From the NCBI RefSeq assembly GCF_003583365.1, contig NZ_QXED01000007.1:186001-250000 (forward strand): a stretch of 64,000 nucleotides of DNA, given 5' to 3'. Position numbers and translations under genes: made by a program. The notes below the pieces were generated by a model, which made no database searches, had not been told where the DNA came from, and worked only from the letters and a program-made list of their open reading frames with translations. The DNA is from Fibrisoma montanum (GTDB taxonomy: Bacteria; Bacteroidota; Bacteroidia; Cytophagales; Spirosomataceae). How positions within the stretch are numbered: position 1 is the stretch's first letter; each line of letters begins with the position of its first letter. Of this stretch, positions 29,830-55,647 are shown in pieces.

Positions 29830-30020
29830 TAACGTGAATTATCGATACATGCCAGCTTAATCCAGGACAGCTGACACGTTGTTCCATTTTTGTCATCCCG
29901 ACGTAAGGAGGGATCTTAGGGTGAGGCTCTGTTTGCTTCCGTTTACCAAAGATCCCTCCTGCCGTCGGGATGACAAAAATGGGCTTAGATGGATCAAATG
30001 CCTGGCCCTAATTCACGTTA
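29830..30020. repeat. Nested inverted repeat, MITE-like (copy 1 of GTCATYCCGAC family)
   Basis: Outer 12-bp perfect inverted repeat TAACGTGAATTA (29830-29841 with 30009-30020). Inner arms of about 34 bp begin CCATTTTTGTCATCCCGACG (29884) and end with the complement at 29982, around a 30-base loop. The inner hairpin is also found at 47421-47512. It contains no gene. Confidence 0.8.
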
Positions 30021-45893: not shown

Positions 45894-45979
45894 CTGAACC
45901 GAAGTGAACGGATAGGTTGACGGCGGACCGGCCCAACTATGAACTGTCGCACATACTCTTTCAAACACATTTTGGGCGA

Positions 45980-46022
45980 TCTAACCAACAACTCCGCGTG
46001 ATGGTGATCCAACAAGTTAGAG
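45980..46022 (-). other. Left-end relic of an attC-like site
   Basis: AACTCCGCGTGATGGTGAT here is close to the AACGACTCCATGTGGTGAT start of the site at 53601. CTAAC at the left and GTTAG at the right give a short inverted pair. It lacks the rest of a full site. It may mark the left limit of the array. Confidence 0.3.
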
Positions 46023-46104
46023 CAAAGCAATGTACCTAATCCCTTTATACATCTGCTGGAATGCGCTTTTGAATTACAGCCAACTGATTATTAACATTCA
46101 TCCA

Positions 46105-46167
46105 AAAAGTTATTTTAACAGATCCTCTGAGGTCGTTTGCACACGAACTCGGTGACAGTTGGGCTGC
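46105..46167 (-). repeat. 63-bp direct repeat, copy 1, holding an attC-like site
   Basis: Matches 47561-47623 at 60 of 63 bases, same orientation. Inside, TTTTAAC (46113-46119) and GTTGGGC (46158-46164) are the outer core boxes. GAGGTCG and CGAACTC pair with one unpaired base, as L boxes of attC do. It follows the TraB-like gene. Confidence 0.55.
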
Positions 46168-46246
46168 TTTGTTTGACTTGGTGACTTGCTTCATATCGAC
46201 CGAAAGCGGCTCCATACGAAGCGTACAAAACGCATCTCTTATTTTA

Positions 46247-47023
46247 TCAATCGTAAGAGTTTTTGATTTCAAAATTATTTTCCTTGAGCATTTCAACTAA
46301 TGCATACTTGTGGTCGTTACCTACAAAAACAACTATTCTCTTTCCTTTGAATTCTTTGGCGTATTTAATAATATTTTCTGTCATTATCTTATTTCTCTTG
46401 TTCCAATAGTTTTTTCTAAGCTCTGCAAAACTCACCCACTTCTCCAAATCTTTAGTTCTTTTTGCTATGGAAATCATCAGTTCAAAGTTTATTTTATTCT
46501 TTAAAGCAAGGAATTTAGTTGCCACGTCAGAATTTGATTCCTTCAATGAATTAAACTTTAAACTTGAATAGCTACTCAAAGCTAAGAGTAAGATTTCAAA
46601 ATCAACTTTACAATCTTCTGATAATTTATTACTTTTATAAAAATCTAACATTTCCTTAAACATATTATTTTCTTTTACTTGGTAATTTTCTTTTTCATAA
46701 AAATCGTGCCTTCCGTTAATATCAAACGGCCGTAACTGTGTTCCTCGCTGTTGCTTGTATTTATAACTAGCAATATTCTCATTGGTTGTTAAATAATCAT
46801 TTATTGAATATTTAGATGTATTAAAATTATAATCTTTGTCAAAGTGTTTCTCTTCCAATTCAATTAGAATTAAATCTGGCTTTATCTTATTTAAAGCAGC
46901 GGTTAGTGTATCTGGATTGATGTAATTATTTTTCTCGTGCGCTGTTCCAATTAACCATATTTTATTTTGGCCATAGCCGATAGAAGTGATAAGTAAGATG
47001 GGGATCAGAAAAAGTAATTTCAT
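46247..47023 (-). CDS. TraB/GumN-like secreted protein
   Basis: 258 residues. A signal peptide (MKLLFLIPILLITSIGYG) precedes IWLIGTAHEKNN and a PDLILIELEE strand, the opening blocks of the TraB/PrgY-GumN fold; a GNDHKYAL block near the end fits the family's third motif. Function of the family is not settled (possibly a metalloprotease-like fold). The gene is far AT-richer than its surroundings, a sign of transfer. It is flanked by a 63-bp direct repeat on both sides, and so looks like a cassette. Confidence 0.75.
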   Translation of the reverse strand: MKLLFLIPILLITSIGYGQNKIWLIGTAHEKNNYINPDTLTAALNKIKPDLILIELEEKHFDKDYNFNTSKYSINDYLTTNENIASYKYKQQRGTQLRPFDINGRHDFYEKENYQVKENNMFKEMLDFYKSNKLSEDCKVDFEILLLALSSYSSLKFNSLKESNSDVATKFLALKNKINFELMISIAKRTKDLEKWVSFAELRKNYWNKRNKIMTENIIKYAKEFKGKRIVVFVGNDHKYALVEMLKENNFEIKNSYD

Positions 47024-47420
47024 AAAATTGTCTAGTAATTTTTTAATCGTAAAAGCCCAAAATATAACAAACCCGGCTTATGTCAATCCAACCTGATAGA
47101 TGTCATATTGAGGTGTTTGGCTGTCAACTTCATTGTACTTCATCTATCTGTCTGACTAACCCCAGCGTTTAGTGTGTCGACCAAAACTCCGAAATATGAA
47201 TTTAAAGCGTGTCTATCTGACAAGTGCGGCTTGTCACCCGAATGCGGCACTCACATTTTACTTTTTGTCTCTGCGTCCAATGCCCTAAATGGTGATGGAT
47301 GCGAGTTCTATACTTCAGAACAAATCCTGACAGCACTTTTAAACCAATTGTTTGATGTGTTTCAATACCAAATTACTTTGAAGTTGTTTAGGATTCAAGG
47401 AAAGAAAATAAGAAGAGGAC

Positions 47421-47512
47421 GTTTTTGTCATTCCGACACCAGGAGGAATCGTCTGTAGCTCGAGGAGTGATCGTCGGCGAAGATTCCTCCTGGCGTCGGA
47501 ATGACAAAAAAC
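47421..47512. repeat. MITE-like hairpin (copy 2 of GTCATYCCGAC family)
   Basis: Arms GTTTTTGTCATTCCGAC... and the complement, about 30 bp with one mismatch, around a 31-base loop. It is related to the inner hairpin at 29884-29982 (TTTTTGTCATCCCGAC). No gene inside. Confidence 0.8.
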
Positions 47513-47560
47513 ACGCTCGGAATGAAACCCTAAACAGCTTCTTCATAAGCTAGCAACATT

Positions 47561-47623
47561 AAAAGTTATTTTAACAGATCCTCTGGGGTCGTTTGCACAC
47601 GAACTCGGTGGCGGTTGGGCTGC
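47561..47623 (-). repeat. 63-bp direct repeat, copy 2, holding an attC-like site
   Basis: Core boxes TTTTAAC (47569-47575) and GTTGGGC (47614-47620). Near-identical to copy 1 at 46105-46167, 1456 bases away. Lies after the methyltransferase gene, read on the minus strand. Confidence 0.55.
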
Positions 47624-47750
47624 CATCTCTGACCTACCAACCCGACGTAGACAACTGGCTACCAGAGCAATTACCCTATTGCTCAGGACCTTCGGAGCCA
47701 AAACTAATGAGCAGAACACAGCCAGTGCGATTAGCCGAGTATCGCCTTTC

Positions 47751-48494
47751 TTAACCCTTCGCCCGAACACACGAAAGCCCAACAATCGGTTGCCAACTTA
47801 AGATAGCTGACCAATAGTCCCTTCCATGCACCTCAACGCCTTCAGGGGAAACCTTCACCGAGTGCCATTGAATCTGGGAAAGACCCGCGGATTGTAATGC
47901 CGTTTCGTGGGTAGCTTTTTCGAGGTGGTAGTTGGTAACGGCGATGTGAGATGCATCCGATTGATAAAAGCGATACGTGATGGCAGCTCCTTCGTCATAG
48001 CTATCGTTTTCGCGGGTGAACCCATACGGAAACATAATCGCAACACTACCCCGGAAATCAGGATTGCTGTTGATAGTAATGAAACGACCGCCGGGTTTCA
48101 AATGGTTGGCAATAACCCGGCACATCTGATCGAGTTCGTCAGCTGTGCGGGCGTAGTTAAGCAGATAACTGGCACAGATAAGGTCGAATTTTTTGTCAAG
48201 ATTGAGCAACAGAACATCCTGGCAATAATACGTTAATCCAAGTTGCGAAGCGGTTTCGGCCTCCCGCGCGAGCTGGATCATACCCTCCGAAATGTCAACG
48301 CCTGTAACCTGAGCAGCCCCTCTATACTTAATTTGCCGGGTGTAGAACCCTTCTCCACACGCTAAATCAAGCACATCCAGGTCGGCCAGATCTCCTGCCA
48401 ACTCAAAGAATGTGTACGACTCAACATAATTTCGCCAGGGTAACAACTTGGATGCCTGGTACTCTTTTGCAATTGCGTTGTAGTCGGTCGCCAT
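47751..48494 (-). CDS. Class I SAM-dependent methyltransferase
   Basis: 247 residues. The SAM-binding motif VLDLACGEGFYT (about 40-51), the acidic GVDIS after the next strand and the LKPGGRF block are typical of the class I fold. The substrate is likely a small molecule. The ATG at 48494 is chosen over the GTG one codon upstream. Followed on its strand by an attC-like repeat and preceded by a spacer; probable cassette gene. Its GC content is nearer the chromosome's than that of its neighbours. Confidence 0.85.
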   Translation of the reverse strand: MATDYNAIAKEYQASKLLPWRNYVESYTFFELAGDLADLDVLDLACGEGFYTRQIKYRGAAQVTGVDISEGMIQLAREAETASQLGLTYYCQDVLLLNLDKKFDLICASYLLNYARTADELDQMCRVIANHLKPGGRFITINSNPDFRGSVAIMFPYGFTRENDSYDEGAAITYRFYQSDASHIAVTNYHLEKATHETALQSAGLSQIQWHSVKVSPEGVEVHGRDYWSAILSWQPIVGLSCVRAKG

Positions 48495-48632
48495 CACGTA
48501 GGTGGTTAGGATAGAGAAAAGAGGAATCTTTTAACAGCAGGGGATGACTTAACAGGACGTGCGGCCTGTCGCCGGGAAGATGGAACACAAGGCAGGAAAA
48601 CCGTCCCCCCGATCGGCATTGGACACCAACGA

Positions 48633-48896
48633 TTACCGGATGTTTCGGCTACGAAGTTCAGCTTCAAGCGCTTTGAAGTTATCTTCGTTTCTCTTGCCGC
48701 CACTACCCAGACTGCCGAAAAGAATCACCAAAAGCACTATTTTAACCAATGAAGCGTGACTCATAACAGCCCAAAAAACGATACCGATGAACGCTCCGAT
48801 AATGAAGGCCCACATGATTCTCTGCTTCTTGATTTTGGCTTCTGCGACCAGCAATTCGTCTACAGTTAATTTTGAGTAGTCAATAGGGGAAGCCAT
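48633..48896 (-). CDS. Small two-helix membrane protein
   Basis: 87 residues. Polar start (DYSKLTVDELLVAEAKIKKQ), then two hydrophobic segments (about 28-45 and 50-63) separated by a short loop, and a charged helical tail. Similar small proteins of unknown function are frequent in Bacteroidota genomes. It has a good ATG start. No clear attC follows; spacer motif (48555-48575) does. Confidence 0.6.
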   Translation of the reverse strand: MASPIDYSKLTVDELLVAEAKIKKQRIMWAFIIGAFIGIVFWAVMSHASLVKIVLLVILFGSLGSGGKRNEDNFKALEAELRSRNIR

Positions 48897-48919
48897 AGTC
48901 TGTTTTCTTTGAGGGTAGA

Positions 48920-48957
48920 CAAATGCAATGTAGCGATCTGTTCAATGCTGGGCTAAA
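48920..48957 (-). other. Decayed right half of an attC-like site
   Basis: GTAGCGAT...AATGCTGGGCT aligns with the GTAGCGAGG...GATGTTAGGCT right half of the site at 51108. The left half is missing. It sits between the two cassettes with genes at 48633 and 49032. Confidence 0.3.
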
Positions 48958-49031
48958 ATACACAGCTGGGCTCACGTACACAAACACTGACCTGCTTCAC
49001 TTGTCGAGGTAGCCTAACGGGGGCGGGCTGG

Positions 49032-49772
49032 TTATTTTGAAACAGGCTTATACATTTTGACATAAGTCTCATATTTCCATTCCTCTGCAGAGGGCTTTTT
49101 TCCATTTATAGAAATAGCCGAAAATTTTACAAGTGTGTAATCTTTAGGATTTAAATTGTCTCTTTGGATCACCTGAAGCGGTAAGTATTTGTCATCTATA
49201 ATGACGGTATATGTTAGTTTCTTTTCGACGCTCAATTTCTCTAACTTGCCAAACCTGCCCATCATATAGTTATTTAGAGTGAAACGAAAAGCACTGAATT
49301 TCTTACCGTTTATTATAGTATCAGCCACTACTCTGTTAATTGAATCAGACGACAGTACAATGGGCAAAAAACGCTTGAGTGAATAGTAAGAATTCACAAA
49401 AAAGGTTTGACTGCGAAATGTGTCGTGAGATGGCTTTTTAGTTAACTCAATAGTATTTGCTTTTTTGTTTATATTGAAATATTCTTCACCGTTAAAAACA
49501 GAAGAATAAGTCTTCTCACTGTCAGTAAAAACCAAACCTAACAATGGCTCATTATTGTCGAACTCCATGTATACTTTCTTGCTAGCGTCTTTATGATAGT
49601 TTTCAGATAAATAATTCAATTCTATATAGTAATCATACTTAACATGATGTATTGAATTTAACTCTTTCAAAGTGCTTCGAATTACCTTGTTTACGACTGC
49701 GGTATCGAGAGTACTACTCGCAAAAGCGTCAGCGGTCACGAAGAATGCAAAATAAAAGAACAACGTTCTCAT
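49032..49772 (-). CDS. Secreted hypothetical protein
   Basis: 246 residues. Signal peptide (MRTLFFYFAFFVTADAFA), then a mostly beta protein with alternating strands (KVYMEFDNNEPLLGLVF, TYTVIIDDKYLPLQVIQ), which recalls the LolA/outer-membrane lipoprotein carrier-like or TlpA N-terminal fold. I do not recognise the family. AT-rich and unlike the chromosome in base use. Same strand as all other genes of the array. Confidence 0.6.
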   Translation of the reverse strand: MRTLFFYFAFFVTADAFASSTLDTAVVNKVIRSTLKELNSIHHVKYDYYIELNYLSENYHKDASKKVYMEFDNNEPLLGLVFTDSEKTYSSVFNGEEYFNINKKANTIELTKKPSHDTFRSQTFFVNSYYSLKRFLPIVLSSDSINRVVADTIINGKKFSAFRFTLNNYMMGRFGKLEKLSVEKKLTYTVIIDDKYLPLQVIQRDNLNPKDYTLVKFSAISINGKKPSAEEWKYETYVKMYKPVSK

Positions 49773-49978
49773 GAGTTTATAGTAAAGCTAAATTTAAGAA
49801 TGACTATCTGAACAAAGGCTATTCTCGTGTCCGACGCAACTTGTCCGACTTGTCAAACCAACTAATACCGGTGTTCGCGGTGTCGACCGGAGCTTGAAAT
49901 GCGAATTTGTAAGATTTTCTATCAGTTAAGTGCGGCTTATCACAATAATGCTAGTTACTATATACTTATTGTGTTTAC

Positions 49979-50065
49979 CCTCAACGCCCGGAGGGCTGAT
50001 GGTGAACAAAAGACAAGATAAAACTCAAGTATGTTACAACCTTTACACCCTCTGCTTCGTTAGGT
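49979..50065 (-). other. attC-like site (weak)
   Basis: CCTCAAC (49979-49985) and GTTAGGT (50059-50065) serve as core boxes. GGTGAACAAAAG on the left pairs with CTTTACACC on the right, and GGAGGG with CCCTC. It lies after the lipoprotein gene at 50224. Confidence 0.4.
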
Positions 50066-50223
50066 GCCAGTTTGGCTAGCCGGGCAGTTTCCTGTCCGAG
50101 GTAAGTGGACCCCGCAGAGCTGACTAACCAAGCACAGCACCGAATAAGCTGAGAGAGGCAGAAGCTTGTCCTCTGAATAGCGCATTGTAACAACTTGAGA
50201 CGTGTGATCTTACAGACTTTATG

Positions 50224-50847
50224 TCATTTATCCTTTATTAGTACGTCCTTGATCTTTATTCGGAACAGTCCTTCAGTGAAACGAGCCGTTTCCGGCAGGC
50301 CGTTTTGGAGTCGGTTAAAGACGGTCATATCTTCATTGAGCGAAAGGGTAAAACGCCCTTCTACTATGCCTGACGAATGATTCACTTTTGTTACCCTAAC
50401 CCAACTATGTTTTGATCCATTATCGACATATCGCTTCATTGTTCCACCAGAATTACCCACATAATAAAAGCTAGTTCGCTCTTTTTTCAAGCTGCCGCGC
50501 TTGTCGAGGTCAGCAATCAGGGTGCGACCCTTTTTCAATGGAATATTGTAGATAGTCAATTGTTGAGTTAGGGTACATTCGGGATCTACACAACCATTAT
50601 CGGTATTCGGGTTAGGCTTATCACCCATACCGGGATAATCAATGTCGGTAAAGACTAGCAGATTAAACTGTCGAACGTCTTCTAATTTTTGGGTCGGCTC
50701 CTTAATTCGTAATACCTGACCGGTTCCATACCAGCTAGAATCATTGAGTATACTAGTCACAGTAAATGGGCTGTTAGCAGGCAAAGAAGGTTGTCGAGCA
50801 CATCCACCAATCAAGAGTACGAGCGCGCTGAAATAAAGACTTTTCAT
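50224..50847 (-). CDS. Hypothetical lipoprotein
   Basis: 207 residues. Lipoprotein signal with LIGGC lipobox (Cys16). The mature part is mainly beta (VLRIKEPTQ, FNLLVFTDIDYPG), with CVDPEC (two cysteines six apart). No family recognised. Moderate AT-richness. Followed by the weak attC-like site at 49979-50065, and so probably the gene of one cassette. Confidence 0.6.
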   Translation of the reverse strand: MKSLYFSALVLLIGGCARQPSLPANSPFTVTSILNDSSWYGTGQVLRIKEPTQKLEDVRQFNLLVFTDIDYPGMGDKPNPNTDNGCVDPECTLTQQLTIYNIPLKKGRTLIADLDKRGSLKKERTSFYYVGNSGGTMKRYVDNGSKHSWVRVTKVNHSSGIVEGRFTLSLNEDMTVFNRLQNGLPETARFTEGLFRIKIKDVLIKDK

Positions 50848-51107
50848 TCTAACTCAGTTTGTAGTTAAGTTTGATTGATGCAGATAAAGTGGTTTTTCAT
50901 AAATACCGTTCGAAATAAACGTATTTGTCGACGTTTTGTCGCCTAGTAGTTGACCTTTTCAATCAGACGCGATACGCCAGCAAAAACATGCTATCCAGCG
51001 GTGACTAGCCTGTCGACCGGAACGCGAAACACCAACATAAATACACTCACTATCAATTATTTACCCTGTCGCCCGATACGTGAACTACCCACTAACTTGA
51101 ACGGGAC
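50848..51107. other. Spacer without gene
   Basis: Holds two copies of the CCTGTCGMCCG-type spacer motif (about 50997-51020 and 51063-51078). No convincing ORF on either strand. Confidence 0.5.
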
Positions 51108-51171
51108 ACCTAACGCCAATATATGGTGATGACGACCGTAGCGAGGCATTTACACACATGGGATGTTAGGC
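51108..51171 (-). other. attC-like site
   Basis: ACCTAAC (51108-51114) and GTTAGGC (51165-51171) match RYYYAAC/GTTRRRY exactly. The centre (GGTGATGACG...CGTAGCGAGGCATTTACAC) is shared with sites at 53601 and 54577. It lies downstream of the ECF sigma gene. Confidence 0.65.
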
Positions 51172-51429
51172 TGTCAGACCTTGCTTTTAGGACAAGCTTC
51201 CTGTCACTGGCAACCAAGCCACACACGCGGAGCGAACTACTAACGTTGAAGCATTGGCGATGTGACGGTATTCATTGAACGTCCAGCCCCAGACCGCTGC
51301 TGAATATAGTTAATTATGTTGATGATAAGCACTCCAGTCAAATGTTGTTCGTAACGCTGGAACAGTTGCTGAGGCTTGCACATAGCTGATTGCTTGTTCG
51401 TTGCCCCGACATATACGCCAATGCATTTG

Positions 51430-52680
51430 TTAGCTGCTGTTTCTCTTTTCTGCAAGAGTTGCTATTGTTTTACCAAGTTGCTTTTTCTCCAAAGGTGAAT
51501 TTGTCAATCGGATAGATTGGTTATAATGGTCTATGGCTTTGTCTGTATCGATAGCAGAATATAAATAGCCAAGTAATGAATGATAGTAACTGTTTGTCGG
51601 CAAACCTAATTTTGCTGCTTCGTTTATTGCTTTTTCATTTCCGTAAATTTTTGCAAAGGCAAATGTTCTGTTTAATGCAGCACCGGACGAATACTCCCAT
51701 AACAGAAGCTCATTATACAACTCTAAAATGTGCTTCCATTTGCCATTATCAATATTGGTTGTATGCCAATAAGCAATGCTTGCTTCAAGGTGATATTTTG
51801 ACAGTTCCTTGGTAGCATAGGCGTTTACTAAATAATAATTCCCTTTATTAATCAGATCTTTGTTCCAAAGCGCGGTGTCCTGCTCTTCAAAAAGAACAGC
51901 GCCGTCAGCAACTATTCTTGCTTCAAGTCTTGAACTTTGAAAACATTGCAAGGCAAGAAGGGCATTTACTTTCGAATTGTTAGTATGGGCATTCTCCGTC
52001 AATGTTAGTGTCAAGCGCATTGCCTCAGCGCATAAATCTTTTCGAACTAAATTGTCGTTTGATTTAGAAAAATAGCCTTCGTTGAATAAAAGATAAAGTG
52101 TGGTCAGAACGGTGTCAAGCCGCGATCCGATATCTTCTGCTCGCAATTCCTCAATCTTAAAATTCTGAATGCGTAAATGTTCTCGTGCCCTAAATAATCT
52201 TTTTTTGATTGTTTCTTTATTGCTTAAAAAAGCATTGGCTATTTCTTCAACACTAAAGCCGCAGAGAATTTGCAAAGCCAAACACACTTGCGCTTCTTTG
52301 GCAATGGCAGGATTGCAAACTGCAAACATCATTGCCAACTGACTGTCCCTGAAGTTTTGTTCCGTAAAATCAATGTCCGTGAAACAGTGGTCATGGCTTT
52401 TCTCCATAATTGTTTTCACTACATTACTTTCAAAAATTGCATTTCGTTTCAGGTAGTCTTTTGTTTTGTTTTTTGCAACAGTATACAACCATGCCGTCGG
52501 GTTCTCGGGCGGTCCGTGTAAGCTCCATACTTCGGTTGCTTTTAAAAACGTATCACTTGCAATGTCTTCTGCAATTTCAATATGCTTCAAACCAAACTGA
52601 CGGCATAGAACAGCCGTCAGTTTGGTATATTCCAATCTAAACAAATGTGGCAAAAGGACGTGGCTCACATTTTCTTTCAC
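51430..52680 (-). CDS. ECF sigma factor with TPR-like C-terminal extension (ECF42-like)
   Basis: 416 residues from a GTG start; the next GTG four codons in is possible. Sigma region 2 (about 10-75; FGLKHIEIAEDIASDTFLKA), region 4 (about 110-165; FSVEEIANAFLSNKETIKKRL) and a helical extension of about 230 residues (LLALQ, YHSLLGYLYSAIDTDKAI). This layout matches ECF42-type sigma factors, which are regularly paired with YCII/DGPF-type proteins, as here. No anti-sigma is seen; the extension may regulate it. AT-rich and probably a transferred cassette. Confidence 0.88.
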   Translation of the reverse strand: MKENVSHVLLPHLFRLEYTKLTAVLCRQFGLKHIEIAEDIASDTFLKATEVWSLHGPPENPTAWLYTVAKNKTKDYLKRNAIFESNVVKTIMEKSHDHCFTDIDFTEQNFRDSQLAMMFAVCNPAIAKEAQVCLALQILCGFSVEEIANAFLSNKETIKKRLFRAREHLRIQNFKIEELRAEDIGSRLDTVLTTLYLLFNEGYFSKSNDNLVRKDLCAEAMRLTLTLTENAHTNNSKVNALLALQCFQSSRLEARIVADGAVLFEEQDTALWNKDLINKGNYYLVNAYATKELSKYHLEASIAYWHTTNIDNGKWKHILELYNELLLWEYSSGAALNRTFAFAKIYGNEKAINEAAKLGLPTNSYYHSLLGYLYSAIDTDKAIDHYNQSIRLTNSPLEKKQLGKTIATLAEKRNSS

Positions 52681-52866
52681 TTGTTACACAGGTTTATTGA
52701 CACGCTTGTAAATAGTTGTCCTATTTACAATGCCTGCCGGTGTCATACTCGATCTACTTATTCTTTTTGGATTGTTGCTATTTGCCTAACCAAGCCTATG
52801 GCACGAGAAAAGGAGGCAAATCGCAAGACAATAAACGAAATGCTTTTCATTTAAAGCAGAATGAGA

Positions 52867-53223
52867 TCAACTCTGATCATCCGGGGTAGTCACGGCTCTT
52901 ACTTCCACATTACCGCCTTCTTTTAATATGGGACAACCTTTGGCTAATTCAACAGCTTCATTAATGTCGGTTGTCTTAACGATGATGTAGCCTTGGATGA
53001 ACTCTTTAATTTCTGTGTACGGTCCGTCAGATACAATGTTGTCAGGCTTAACGGTTTTGGCACTTGAGACCGAAAGCCTGTTGCCATTGTTTGCCAGCTT
53101 GTCTTGAGCAGCAAGGCTACCAAACCAATTCATCCAATCAGTTATCACCTGCTGCATTTGTTCTGGTGACGGTGCATCAGCTGGAGTAGTGCTGTTTCTG
53201 AAAATAAACACGAATTCTTTCAT
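52867..53223 (-). CDS. YCII/DGPF-type protein
   Basis: 118 residues. FRNSTTPADAPSPEQMQQ near the start and SDGPYTEIKEFIQGYIIVK in the middle match the DGPF/YCII-related family, which forms a ferredoxin-like dimer of unclear activity. It is the first gene of a pair with the ECF sigma gene 186 bases downstream, a known ECF42 arrangement. The sigma factor probably controls or is controlled in concert with this gene. Confidence 0.85.
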   Translation of the reverse strand: MKEFVFIFRNSTTPADAPSPEQMQQVITDWMNWFGSLAAQDKLANNGNRLSVSSAKTVKPDNIVSDGPYTEIKEFIQGYIIVKTTDINEAVELAKGCPILKEGGNVEVRAVTTPDDQS

Positions 53224-53600
53224 GTTAAACTAATTTTCTTGTTACGAATAATGATTACGTCTTCATCACGATTGAAAAATAGAAATGGGGACACCAATGT
53301 CGATTTTTTTTCGCGATGAAGGTTCTATCAAAATTGTAACTAACTCGCTGATTGCCGCACTTTTAATACAAAATACATACCGCCCGGCGACCCGGTTCGC
53401 ATTTTGTATTGCTGTATGTCTTCAAGCCTGCCTGTTAGGGCGCTCGCCCTGTTGCAAAGACGCTAACTAGCAACCCTAAACCTGACTTGTCGGGACGTTC
53501 GCCCTGTCAGCTTCCACCTTCCGAAAGAGCTAAAGCCCGACCTCTGGGACGTGCAACCTGTCGCCGGAACGCTGCTTTGCAAGCACGTAATGGCCGGTTC
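53224..53600. other. Spacer with clustered 20-25-base motif
   Basis: No gene. Three copies of a related imperfect motif lie at 53434-53455, 53492-53511 and 53546-53567 (typical: GGGACGTTCGCCCTGTC, GGGACGTGCAACCTGTCGCC), each able to fold into a short stem. Confidence 0.55.
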
Positions 53601-53662
53601 ACCCAACGACTCCATGTGGTGATGAACGTGTAGCGCACATTTACACACATGGCCGGTTGGGC
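53601..53662 (-). other. attC-like site (best example)
   Basis: ACCCAAC (53601-53607) and GTTGGGC (53656-53662) are perfect core boxes. Next to them CCATGTG and CACATGG pair as L boxes. The centre holds GTGTAGCGCACATTTACAC. It lies directly after the PIN toxin gene, where a cassette's attC is expected. Confidence 0.7.
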
Positions 53663-53708
53663 TGTTAGTCTGACCTCGCGGCCTGCATCCTGTCACCCGA
53701 AAGCTAAT

Positions 53709-54125
53709 TTATGCTGATTCAGGGCCGTATTGATGTTTATACTTAGGTCGGTAAAAGCTGATGCCCTCGACAAAATCAAAATCCTTTTTGTTGAAGGTGA
53801 ATAATTCAACGGGATACGTTAGAGCGGTTGCTGCAATGATCATATCAGCTATGCCCGGTCGCTTGGCGTAGTGTTCCCATGTCAGAGTGAGGAGTTGGCG
53901 CGAAATTTCAGCATCCAAACCAATTAAGTTGAACTTATTGATGGTTTCGACCGTCTTGCGCTTCTCGCTGCGTTTCATGCCAACGTACATCTCCGCTTCC
54001 GAAATCACACTCAGATACAGTCGGTCAAAACCAAGTTCATCTAATTCCTGAACCATCACCGGCACTCCTCGGAAGTAGTCAAACAATACGTTAGAATCGC
54101 AAAGGACTATCTTCTTTTTGGCCAT
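53709..54125 (-). CDS. PIN-domain toxin (VapC-like)
   Basis: 138 residues. The PIN active-site acids are in place: Asp10 in LCDSNVLFD, a Glu in VISEAEMYVG, and an Asp in IADMIIAATAL, with KKDFDFV later. Such proteins are metal-dependent RNases that stop translation when not held by an antitoxin. The start overlaps the end of the antitoxin gene by 19 bases. Toxin-antitoxin pairs are common cargo of large chromosomal integrons, where they stabilise the array. Confidence 0.88.
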   Translation of the reverse strand: MAKKKIVLCDSNVLFDYFRGVPVMVQELDELGFDRLYLSVISEAEMYVGMKRSEKRKTVETINKFNLIGLDAEISRQLLTLTWEHYAKRPGIADMIIAATALTYPVELFTFNKKDFDFVEGISFYRPKYKHQYGPESA

Positions 54126-54328
54126 GCTTTTGCCCGGATTGAGGTCATTGTGCGTTCATCATTAGCCCAGATCCCACCGAAAGCGGATGGTGTTTCGCCA
54201 GATTTGGCGTTACTCTTACGTAATAGTGGAATTGTCACTTCGAGTTCTGGCTCAGTTTGAATACCGTTCTCACTCAACAGCTTTACAGCTTTGGCGTAAT
54301 CTTCATCGTTGACAGTTAGTGTTTTCAT
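54107..54328 (-). CDS. Antitoxin partner of the PIN toxin
   Basis: 73 residues. Begins MKTLTVNDEDYAKAVKLLSE, a short helical start, and the C-terminal half is polar with Trp and Arg residues (GIWANDERTMTSIR) likely to dock into the toxin. I do not recognise a named DNA-binding fold. The overlap with the toxin gene and small size support the role. It should also repress its own promoter, which lies in the spacer to 54640. Confidence 0.7.
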   Translation of the reverse strand: MKTLTVNDEDYAKAVKLLSENGIQTEPELEVTIPLLRKSNAKSGETPSAFGGIWANDERTMTSIRAKAWPKRR

Positions 54329-54576
54329 CGTCTTGCAGCGTATTGTACAATATTACAACAACTTGGGCATGAATTTGGCTCGTCATCAACAGCTTTGTCC
54401 AAGTTTGAATGTGGGTGCAGTCGCCTTGCCGCCAGAGTGCAGCCCTTCAAGCCTAACCTGCCCAACTTAAGCGTTTGTCTTGTCAACCTGAAGCTGAAGA
54501 TGGAAGCCAAAACTTACCTAACCGGGGCGTTCGCTTTGTCGCACGAAACCCGGATTTGAAACAGCTTAGACGGTAC
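54329..54576. other. Spacer with promoter of the toxin-antitoxin cassette
   Basis: No gene. It contains two spacer motifs (about 54470-54490, and GGGGCGTTCGCTTTGTCGC at 54523-54545). The AT-rich part next to 54328 is a likely promoter. Confidence 0.45.
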
Positions 54577-54640
54577 ACCCAACGACCCCATGTGGTGATG
54601 ACGAGCGTAGCGAGACATTTACTCACATGGAAGTTTGGGC
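54577..54640 (-). other. attC-like site
   Basis: ACCCAAC (54577-54583) and GTTTGGGC (54633-54640; one extra T) are the ends. CCATGTGGTGATGACGAGCG and CACATGG inside are shared with 53601-53662. It follows the secreted-protein gene at 54725. Confidence 0.6.
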
Positions 54641-54724
54641 TGTTTCGCCTAACCTCGCGGCCTGCTTCCTGTCGCCCGACAAGCCGCCCACGCGAAGCGA
54701 AAGAAAATCCTAACTCAAAAAAAC

Positions 54725-55204
54725 TCATTCTACAACCCGAAATGTGTAGCCCCGTTTAACTTTTTTTAGAGGCTTCCCATTCATCAACAAACCCAACCCA
54801 ACTCCCACAGGTATGATGATGGCGGCTCGGCTGATGAATCTACCGCCCCACGTTCGACCTTCATATTTGCTGCTGTTAGCACCTGGCAAAAACAGTATCG
54901 GTACTACGCTAGCGTAAGGACTTAAACGGCGCATGGACAGGCCAAACTTCGACGTTTTTTTCATTCCTTTAATTTCACCAAGTGCAATCCGCTCAATTCC
55001 CTTGCGAGTTGAGACCAAGATGGAATCCGTTTTCACAGTAATTAGTTGGCCAACTGCGTTCCGTTTTGAGAACGTATTGATTACCACATAATCATTAAGA
55101 GCTACCGTTGTGAAGACCCTGTCATCCGGTCTGATAATTTGTAGATTCTGGCCTTTGCAAATCACCCCCGTGAGAAAGAGACAAAGGAAAAATGTGCTTT
55201 TCAT
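54725..55204 (-). CDS. Secreted hypothetical protein
   Basis: 159 residues from the ATG at 55204, which begins a signal peptide (MKSTFFLCLFLTGVICKG); an upstream ATG at 55228 is less likely. The mature protein is beta-rich with GKPLKKVKRGYTF at the end and a glycine-rich hydrophobic stretch (AAIIIPVGVGLGLL) that may be membrane-associated. Family not recognised. AT-richer than chromosome average. Most upstream clear cassette gene. Confidence 0.6.
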   Translation of the reverse strand: MKSTFFLCLFLTGVICKGQNLQIIRPDDRVFTTVALNDYVVINTFSKRNAVGQLITVKTDSILVSTRKGIERIALGEIKGMKKTSKFGLSMRRLSPYASVVPILFLPGANSSKYEGRTWGGRFISRAAIIIPVGVGLGLLMNGKPLKKVKRGYTFRVVE

Positions 55205-55647
55205 AAAACAGTTGAGATGAGTGAACACTTACTGGACTAATAACAATTTACAATTACAAAAAGAAAAACATCTCCGCAAGAATGTTCCTTCTGTCGCCAA
55301 AGCGTAAAAAGCAACGTAAAAAACCTACTCAACTTCGGCGCTTCCTCTGTCACAGGTAACGTAAAGAGCAAGGTAAATCCTGTCCCTGCGGGGCGGTCAT
55401 TGTGTCGCTGGGAACGTAAAACTCACCACGGCTTTACGTTGGCACCCAACAAGTATATGTACGCCAACTTGCGGAACTACTATTCCCTAATAATCAGCGG
55501 TATGTAGTTAAGTGCAACCGATCTATTCTATAAAACAGATGATCTTGTTTATGCTTAAAGTAAACGGACTTTTACGTCTGTTGCAACGTTCGGTTTCGTT
55601 TTTTGACACGTCGATTTCCCCTAGTTTTTCGAATCGGCCCGGCTCAG
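55205..55647. other. Spacer at the right end of the array
   Basis: No gene. Spacer-motif copies near 55285, 55339 and 55389. ACCCAAC at 55444-55450 and GTTAAGT at 55507-55513 could be a weak attC, but the inner pairing is poor. No integrase gene is seen. Confidence 0.45.

Follow-up and report, generated by a model that had tools for sequence, protein, structure and literature searches.

The DNA analysed here, 64,000 nucleotides (nt) of the Fibrisoma montanum contig NZ_QXED01000007.1 (hereafter the window), carries on its minus strand between positions 45974 and 55480 a cassette array that very probably belongs to an integron-like platform of the Spirosomataceae. Since the attachment site attI is retained in the window, the array resembles a platform whose own integrase has been lost. 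The complete platform consists of an integrase gene, a small, conserved gene on the opposite strand, attI and then cassettes in the orientation of the integrase, each ended by a hairpin-forming attC-like site. This organization is backed by the sites themselves, their covarying stems, their single orientation, their linkage to the integrase and whole-unit exchange whose junctions fall mostly at the R' box. A first-pass annotation of positions 45980-55520 had proposed an integron array without an integrase, that is, a cluster of attC sites lacking an integrase (CALIN), in a Spirosoma-like genome. The host is indeed one of the Spirosomataceae and the array does consist of cassettes with attC-like sites, but attI has been kept and the matching integrase is not IntI, the canonical integron integrase.

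The window array starts with an attI-like site and has four clear-cut attC-like hairpin sites, besides one weaker site at its end and one that has decayed. As the annotation had it, about ten genes (ten open reading frames taken as genes, 46247-55204) all lie on the minus strand, and the array is richer in AT than its flanks, with a G+C content per kb of 0.32-0.48 against mostly 0.50-0.63 outside. Its statement that each or almost each gene is followed by a site has to be recast in terms of units, six of which are closed by sites, one of these units (unit 5) holding three genes together (49032-49772, 48633-48896 and 47751-48497). The left end it gave falls within the last R' box (45985-45979), whereas the GTTGGGTG of attI, at 55450, lies inside the right end. 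The non-coding blocks resemble one another (I1 and I2, 67% over 290 bp; I4 and I7, 67% over 145 bp; I7 and I8, 90% over 73 bp). Three of them hold an element of 62-65 nt that runs GCCYAAC, short spacer, CCATGTG, core, CACATGG, spacer, GTTRGGT, with variants of GCCYAAC and of CACATGG also occurring, and one R-box pair differs on both sides among the three elements. Their core pattern has three matches in the 7.79 Mb genome, all in the array, and none in 38 relatives.

We built a covariance model (R1) on the three window sites, which matched 49 of 222 Spirosomataceae genomes; over 45 loci it gave 217 matches, including the three window copies (locus L011; G, L and C numbers are our labels for genomes, loci and contigs). 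From the 150 best of these 217 matches we took 93 long-form sites (set A4; 95-112 nt, <80% alike), aligned them with MAFFT without structure, folded the alignment with RNAalifold and derived from it a second model, R2. The fold has an R stem of 7 bp and an L stem of 8 bp with an unpaired spacer between them, a layout that matches attC. The R boxes of the A4 sites are almost invariant, and six of the eight L pairs show double-sided changes. The covariation score was 0.311 compared with 0.123 in shuffles, none of 500 shuffles reaching the observed value, and slid partners gave at most 0.088; two of five covariation measures, pairs with double changes and pair types, did not rise above shuffles (223/500 and 432/500, respectively). 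The L stems are kept by pairing, not by sequence. The sites thus have L boxes conserved by pairing, an unpaired central spacer and a variable terminal part, features named for attC in an excerpt of PMC2727003. By eye, the R''-L'' arm of the consensus is one base longer than the L'-R' arm inside the L stem, a candidate for the extrahelical bases that set the strand in attC. Folded as single-stranded DNA, S2 adopts R stem, spacer and L stem (z -2.19), and the other two of the three short sites fold no better than shuffles (z 0.05 and 0.99).

The annotation had suggested running an attC covariance model on the window, and R2, applied with filters off and containing no window site among its 93 rows, scored the strong sites there at 56.5 to 33.8 bits. 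These are, all on the minus strand, the short-form sites S1 (54568-54649, R' 54583-54577; 47.1 bits), S2 (53592-53671, R' 53607-53601; 56.5 bits) and S3 (51099-51180, R' 51114-51108; 33.8 bits) and the long-form site S4 (49970-50073, R' 49985-49979; 54.2 bits), which is in neither model. The terminal site S6 (45974-46070, R' 45985-45979) scored 19.9 bits (E 0.0034) and the decayed site S5 (47266-47366), whose block resembles that of S4, 13.2 bits (E 0.19). A search of 12.5 kb against Rfam gave two sub-threshold matches, neither meaningful. Across genomes, R2 at an E-value of 0.01 yielded 266 matches in 44 sources, with one orientation per locus and, as sole exception, a palindromic repeat at window positions 29887-29979; with this match dropped and the terminal site 45974-46070 added, the list of sites again numbers 266. 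Their median spacing is 823 bp, 223 of 227 spacings being below 4 kb. RYYYAAC and GTTRRRY, the end motifs already pointed out in the annotation, both occur at the ends of 196 of the 266 sites but in 39 of 5320 random stretches, a contrast that is partly built in because the model that found the sites holds those boxes. A strict scan of the window for complementary RYYYAAC...GTTRRRY returned four minus-strand pairs, all in the array (a count without chance control). No more than two of these pairs coincide with real sites, so that the bare motif is weak evidence.

The palindromic repeat is a dispersed element of about 90 bp (TTTTTGTCATNCCGACG...) with 32-nt arms. One copy is inserted in the array at 47422-47510, another occupies 29887-29979 and a third lies in another locus of the survey (L103, 13964-14057); further genome copies exist, the arm pattern having 21 genome matches at up to two mismatches. 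The element can mimic an attC match, and 29887-29979, which R2 scores at 24.8 bits on the plus strand, was rejected as an attC-like site for being such a copy.

If the sites delimit cassettes, related arrays should differ by whole units, and the comparison with relatives that the annotation had called for bears this out. Neither outcome that the annotation had named as refuting its reading occurred, model hits being strong and relatives differing by whole units. Cutting at R' boxes, with four sites lacking a readable R' skipped and attI added in 13 loci by its strict pattern, gave 235 units (median 818 bp), and in 205 of them the longest frame in forward direction is longer than that in reverse. 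Loci L080 (genome G175) and L085 (G003), from two species of one genus, have flanks, integrase and attI in common. Identity between them ends at GTTGGGTG, restarts at GCGTTGGGTG for one common unit (99.5%, 597/597 bp) and ends again at that unit's end, and the remaining units differ. Another unit (92% over 744 bp) directly follows attI in one species, and its counterpart in a second species follows an attC site; when the uncut sequences are compared, the likeness sets in one base ahead of GTTGGGTG and extends some 10 nt beyond the next GTTGGGTG. Whole cassettes are gained or lost mostly at the R' box, four of the five junctions examined lying at GTTGGGTG. In a species of the same genus as the host (G001), the orthologous place has flanks 87-89% alike and 1.65 kb in place of 9.7 kb; its array holds one gene, apparently for a prolipoprotein diacylglyceryl transferase, that is flanked by sites on both sides, and the site at 1695-1783 of L125 (23.5 bits) adjoins the same flank as S6 of the window. 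Single parts of the window array recur elsewhere. The DNA of the PIN unit is alike in arrays L111 (85%, 803 bp) and L086 (82%, 779 bp), that of the 87-amino-acid gene is 84% alike (342 and 335 bp) in L078 and L087, where it lies in array orientation past the last site detected, and that of the methyltransferase gene is 85.6% alike (789 bp) in L091, immediately following the last site detected there. No other stretch of at least 200 bp in those five loci is alike to the window array.

One observation counts against an integron-like platform. The fourth L080/L085 junction, the distal one, falls away from R', with likeness restarting 43 and 149 nt past the last R' boxes, and because of it we have slightly lowered our confidence. 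This junction would also suit ordinary repeats, such as terminators, 3' regulatory elements or mobile palindromes, lying between unrelated, horizontally gained genes and shuffled by homologous recombination; so would the likeness of the blocks beyond the hairpin and the presence of a dispersed palindrome in the array. We nevertheless regard that explanation as extremely improbable, since the other three junctions of this pair and the attI/attC unit pair are at R', the L stems are kept by pairing rather than by sequence, orientation is fixed and attI is conserved.

The integrase of the platforms, a tyrosine recombinase of about 390 amino acids encoded just upstream of the arrays, was located through sub-cut-off matches to TIGR02249, the integron integrase model. 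Such matches were all that TIGR02249 gave in the 33 array-bearing genomes searched, our own genome included. On the array integrases the model matched two stretches and skipped positions of about 180-237, and the spacing between the catalytic Lys and His is 66-71 residues in 19 array integrases (20 tried) as against 107 residues in 19 IntI proteins (20 tried), so that the IntI-specific additional domain (the patch) is absent. The catalytic set of a tyrosine recombinase is complete: PF00589 is found in all 23 members of set A5, and R250, K275, R343, H366 and Y375 are present in 20 of 20 rows of alignment A3 and H340 in 19. In a tree that also took in the 18 of 55 distant relatives whose Lys-His spacing could be measured, the array integrases form their own clade outside that of IntI. 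Judged from these sequence comparisons, the array integrase is not IntI. The best curated models for it are NF040815 (XerA; 190 bits, cut-off 220) and TIGR02249, both below cut-off. Moderate evidence suggests that its N-terminal domain resembles the HARP and XPB-DRD folds; a profile search of the PDB with this domain gave 12 weak, unrelated matches. Two longer cousin recombinases (L107, 6730-8337, 536 amino acids; L108, 8850-10499, 550 amino acids) match Pfam HARP in the part upstream of the integrase domain, with a score that exceeds the cut-off in L108 alone, and R2 finds no sites in either stretch.

No integrase is seen in the window, as the annotation had reported, and none of the array type is found on its contig at E <= 1e-60. 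The search elsewhere in the genome that it advised produced no IntI beyond sub-cut-off TIGR02249 matches, but did reveal one intact patchless recombinase (C36:89749-90927) and a second copy with an internal stop (C35), R2 sites lying near both (L010 and L009 being the loci concerned). C36 combines the intact integrase with four sites and C35 the broken one with two sites and a lone site at the contig end; C28 carries attI and four sites without an integrase at E <= 1e-60, and C2 two sites. One enzyme may serve several arrays of this genome.

Sites and integrase occur together. R2 sites were found in 53 of the 222 Spirosomataceae genomes, with at least 17 per genome at the top of the range. A sample of 395 genomes from the phylum contained three with R2 sites, each of them again a member of the Spirosomataceae. 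Of the family genomes with the integrase or pieces of it (E <= 1e-105), 36 of 41 have sites, compared with 17 of the 181 others (Fisher p 4e-23, a value that ignores kinship); the count of 41 keeps four genomes with divergent integrases, without which it is 36 of 37. We fetched 28 integrase loci, many chosen for nearby sites; in the 26 with sites in the stretch, every site is downstream of the integrase on the same strand. High-identity holders of the integrase, among the best 80 of 121 matches, are species of Spirosoma, Rudanella, Fibrella, Fibrivirga and Fibrisoma.

These data bear on whether the array is an ordinary integron remnant, a CALIN whose cassettes a canonical IntI had collected in this host or in a donor, the patchless recombinase being a neighbour without a role. 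The hairpin layout and the fit of both R boxes to the attC consensus in 196 of 266 sites agree with such an origin, and the search for IntI covered only part of the array-bearing genomes (33). Yet TIGR02249 exceeded its cut-off in none of those 33, although it did so in 105 of the 395 phylum genomes (one of those listed belonging to the class of the window, which suggests that canonical integron integrases are common among the phylum's other classes); all 26 loci with both have the patchless integrase upstream of the sites; and R2 detected no site in 20 stretches around IntI genes, 71 kb in all. We therefore consider a CALIN of this kind improbable. XerC/XerD have been proposed as the mover of dif-flanked modules, and another host recombinase of that sort might likewise move the units; the array integrase is itself XerA-like by NF040815, and its genome has further tyrosine recombinases, Xer-like in appearance. 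However, the sites track the array-linked integrase across genomes whereas Xer genes are general, and they are hairpins of 60-85 nt in one orientation, unlike the short dif sites, which makes a role for another recombinase distinctly improbable.

At the head of the array, the attI-like site of the window (55443-55480, minus strand) reads GTTCCGC, 4 nt, TTGGCGTACATATACTT and then GTTGGGTG, the cassettes starting just past the G at position 55450. A core resembling GTTCCGC, 4 nt, TTGCGTACAATACTAT and GTTGGGTG was located by eye 346-396 nt past the integrase stop in 21 of 24 platforms, placing attI beside the integrase gene as in an integron. The strict attI pattern matches the window at 55450 and three further arrays of the same genome (L009, L010 and L103). 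Between integrase and attI, 24 of 28 loci have on the opposite strand a frame for a protein of about 80 amino acids with a WDIxGYPxYFF-like motif (for example, L010 9231-9470). Family searches with this small partner gave no clear known family, and it might act as an accessory factor or a regulator. The attI of the window has neither an integrase nor a frame of this type visible beside it. Platform attI sites are mostly preceded, after the partner gene, by an inverted repeat whose arms vary by species and look complementary by eye; it could be an operator or part of attI.

In the mechanism we propose for the integron-like platform, the patchless tyrosine recombinase would cut at R' (G|TT) and join attI to attC and attC to attC, probably on a folded single strand, and its HARP/DRD-like N-terminal domain would stand in for the IntI patch by helping to read the hairpin. 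Acting in trans, the sole intact integrase of the genome could still serve the window array. As to origin, we lean somewhat towards the idea that integron function arose twice or swapped its enzyme, a Xer-type lineage outside IntI having combined with a HARP/DRD-like structure-reading domain, perhaps with the small partner, to recombine hairpin attC sites without the patch, and the cassette system then spreading through the Spirosomataceae.

R2 on 65 of 79 loci of integrase relatives gave 15 matches, 13 strong (L127, L134, L135, L141, L143 and L146) and two weak. A strict hairpin scan of 28 stretches around integrase relatives found hairpins in L135 (two), L146 (two) and L186 (one) only, four control rows giving 9, 1, 12 and 0. 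The scan missed L127 and L143, both positive with R2, and is blind to minus-strand loci because of a terminal G.T pair; its silence on distant relatives is therefore weak evidence. L127, from Flavobacterium sp. SUN052, encodes an integrase 73% identical to the Spirosomataceae query together with one site; transfer between orders, contamination or a mislabelled record are possible sources.

The cargo of the window array, all on the minus strand, begins with a protein of 159 amino acids (unit 1, 54725-55204) without a Pfam family at E 0.001. Unit 2 encodes a VapC-like PIN-domain protein (53709-54125; PF01850, E 2.8e-10), preceded and overlapped by the gene for a small protein (54107-54328) that has no Pfam family and is antitoxin-like by position only. 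Unit 3 carries a YCII-domain protein (52867-53223; PF03795, E 5.1e-10) and a sigma-70-like protein with DUF6596 (51430-52680; PF20239, E 7.9e-30; PF04542, E 5.3e-8), and unit 4 a protein of 207 amino acids (50224-50847) that looks lipoprotein-like by eye and has no Pfam family. The three genes of unit 5 encode a protein of 246 amino acids without a Pfam family (49032-49772), the 87-amino-acid protein with alike DNA in L078 and L087 (48633-48896) and a class I methyltransferase (47751-48497; PF13649, E 1.2e-20). Unit 6 encodes a TraB/GumN-like protein (46247-47023) whose PF01963 score, 26.6 bits, is just under the cut-off of 26.8. In other arrays, 143 of 194 unit proteins were scanned against Pfam. 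Among the 25 of 71 families listed, PDDEXK_2 is the commonest (10 proteins), followed by IS110 transposases (three), with PIN, Imm10, DUF4279 and DUF6934 in two proteins each. PADLOC, in the 25 of 47 rows listed, reported one member each of AbiLi, Aga_SIR2, HEC-01A, AriA and candidate systems.

A survey of titles and the beginnings of abstracts, with preprints and subscription papers outside its coverage, found no such system, so that an earlier description is possible; integron was never paired there with Spirosomataceae and met Spirosoma in single passing mentions only. No Bacteroidota appear among the 11 attC taxon models in an excerpt of PMC8352920. If our reading is correct, hairpin-cassette recombination can be achieved without the IntI-specific domain, searches based on that domain miss such systems, the patch, extrahelical bases and extra domains can be compared across two lineages, and the Spirosomataceae gain a widespread cassette system.

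Excerpts of PMC9668308 and PMC2426708 use the IntI-specific domain to define and find integrons. Lacking it, the array integrase does not make an integron under a definition that requires that domain, even though the system, as far as sequence can tell, appears integron-like in most testable features, with the enzyme as the exception. Whereas the IntI of integrons has the domain, the array integrase is without it, lies outside the IntI clade and carries an extra N-terminal domain. The inner motif TGTAAAGG...CCATCA is peculiar to these sites, and integrase and array are co-oriented with a small extra gene between them. Co-orientation of integrase and array is known for some integrons. The window array resembles a CALIN in having sites and no integrase nearby, and R2 gives it four to six sites, CALINs being called by IntegronFinder's attC model from two or more attC sites with no IntI nearby; it differs in keeping attI and in a matching integrase family other than IntI. 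With archaeal XerA and with XerC/XerD, the latter acting on dif in dimer resolution, the array integrase has fold and catalytic residues in common, but its gene is array-linked and encodes a HARP/DRD-like domain as well. In contrast to HARP of SMARCAL1 and DRD of XPB, this domain is fused to a recombinase with no helicase, and its predicted role is in reading the hairpin.

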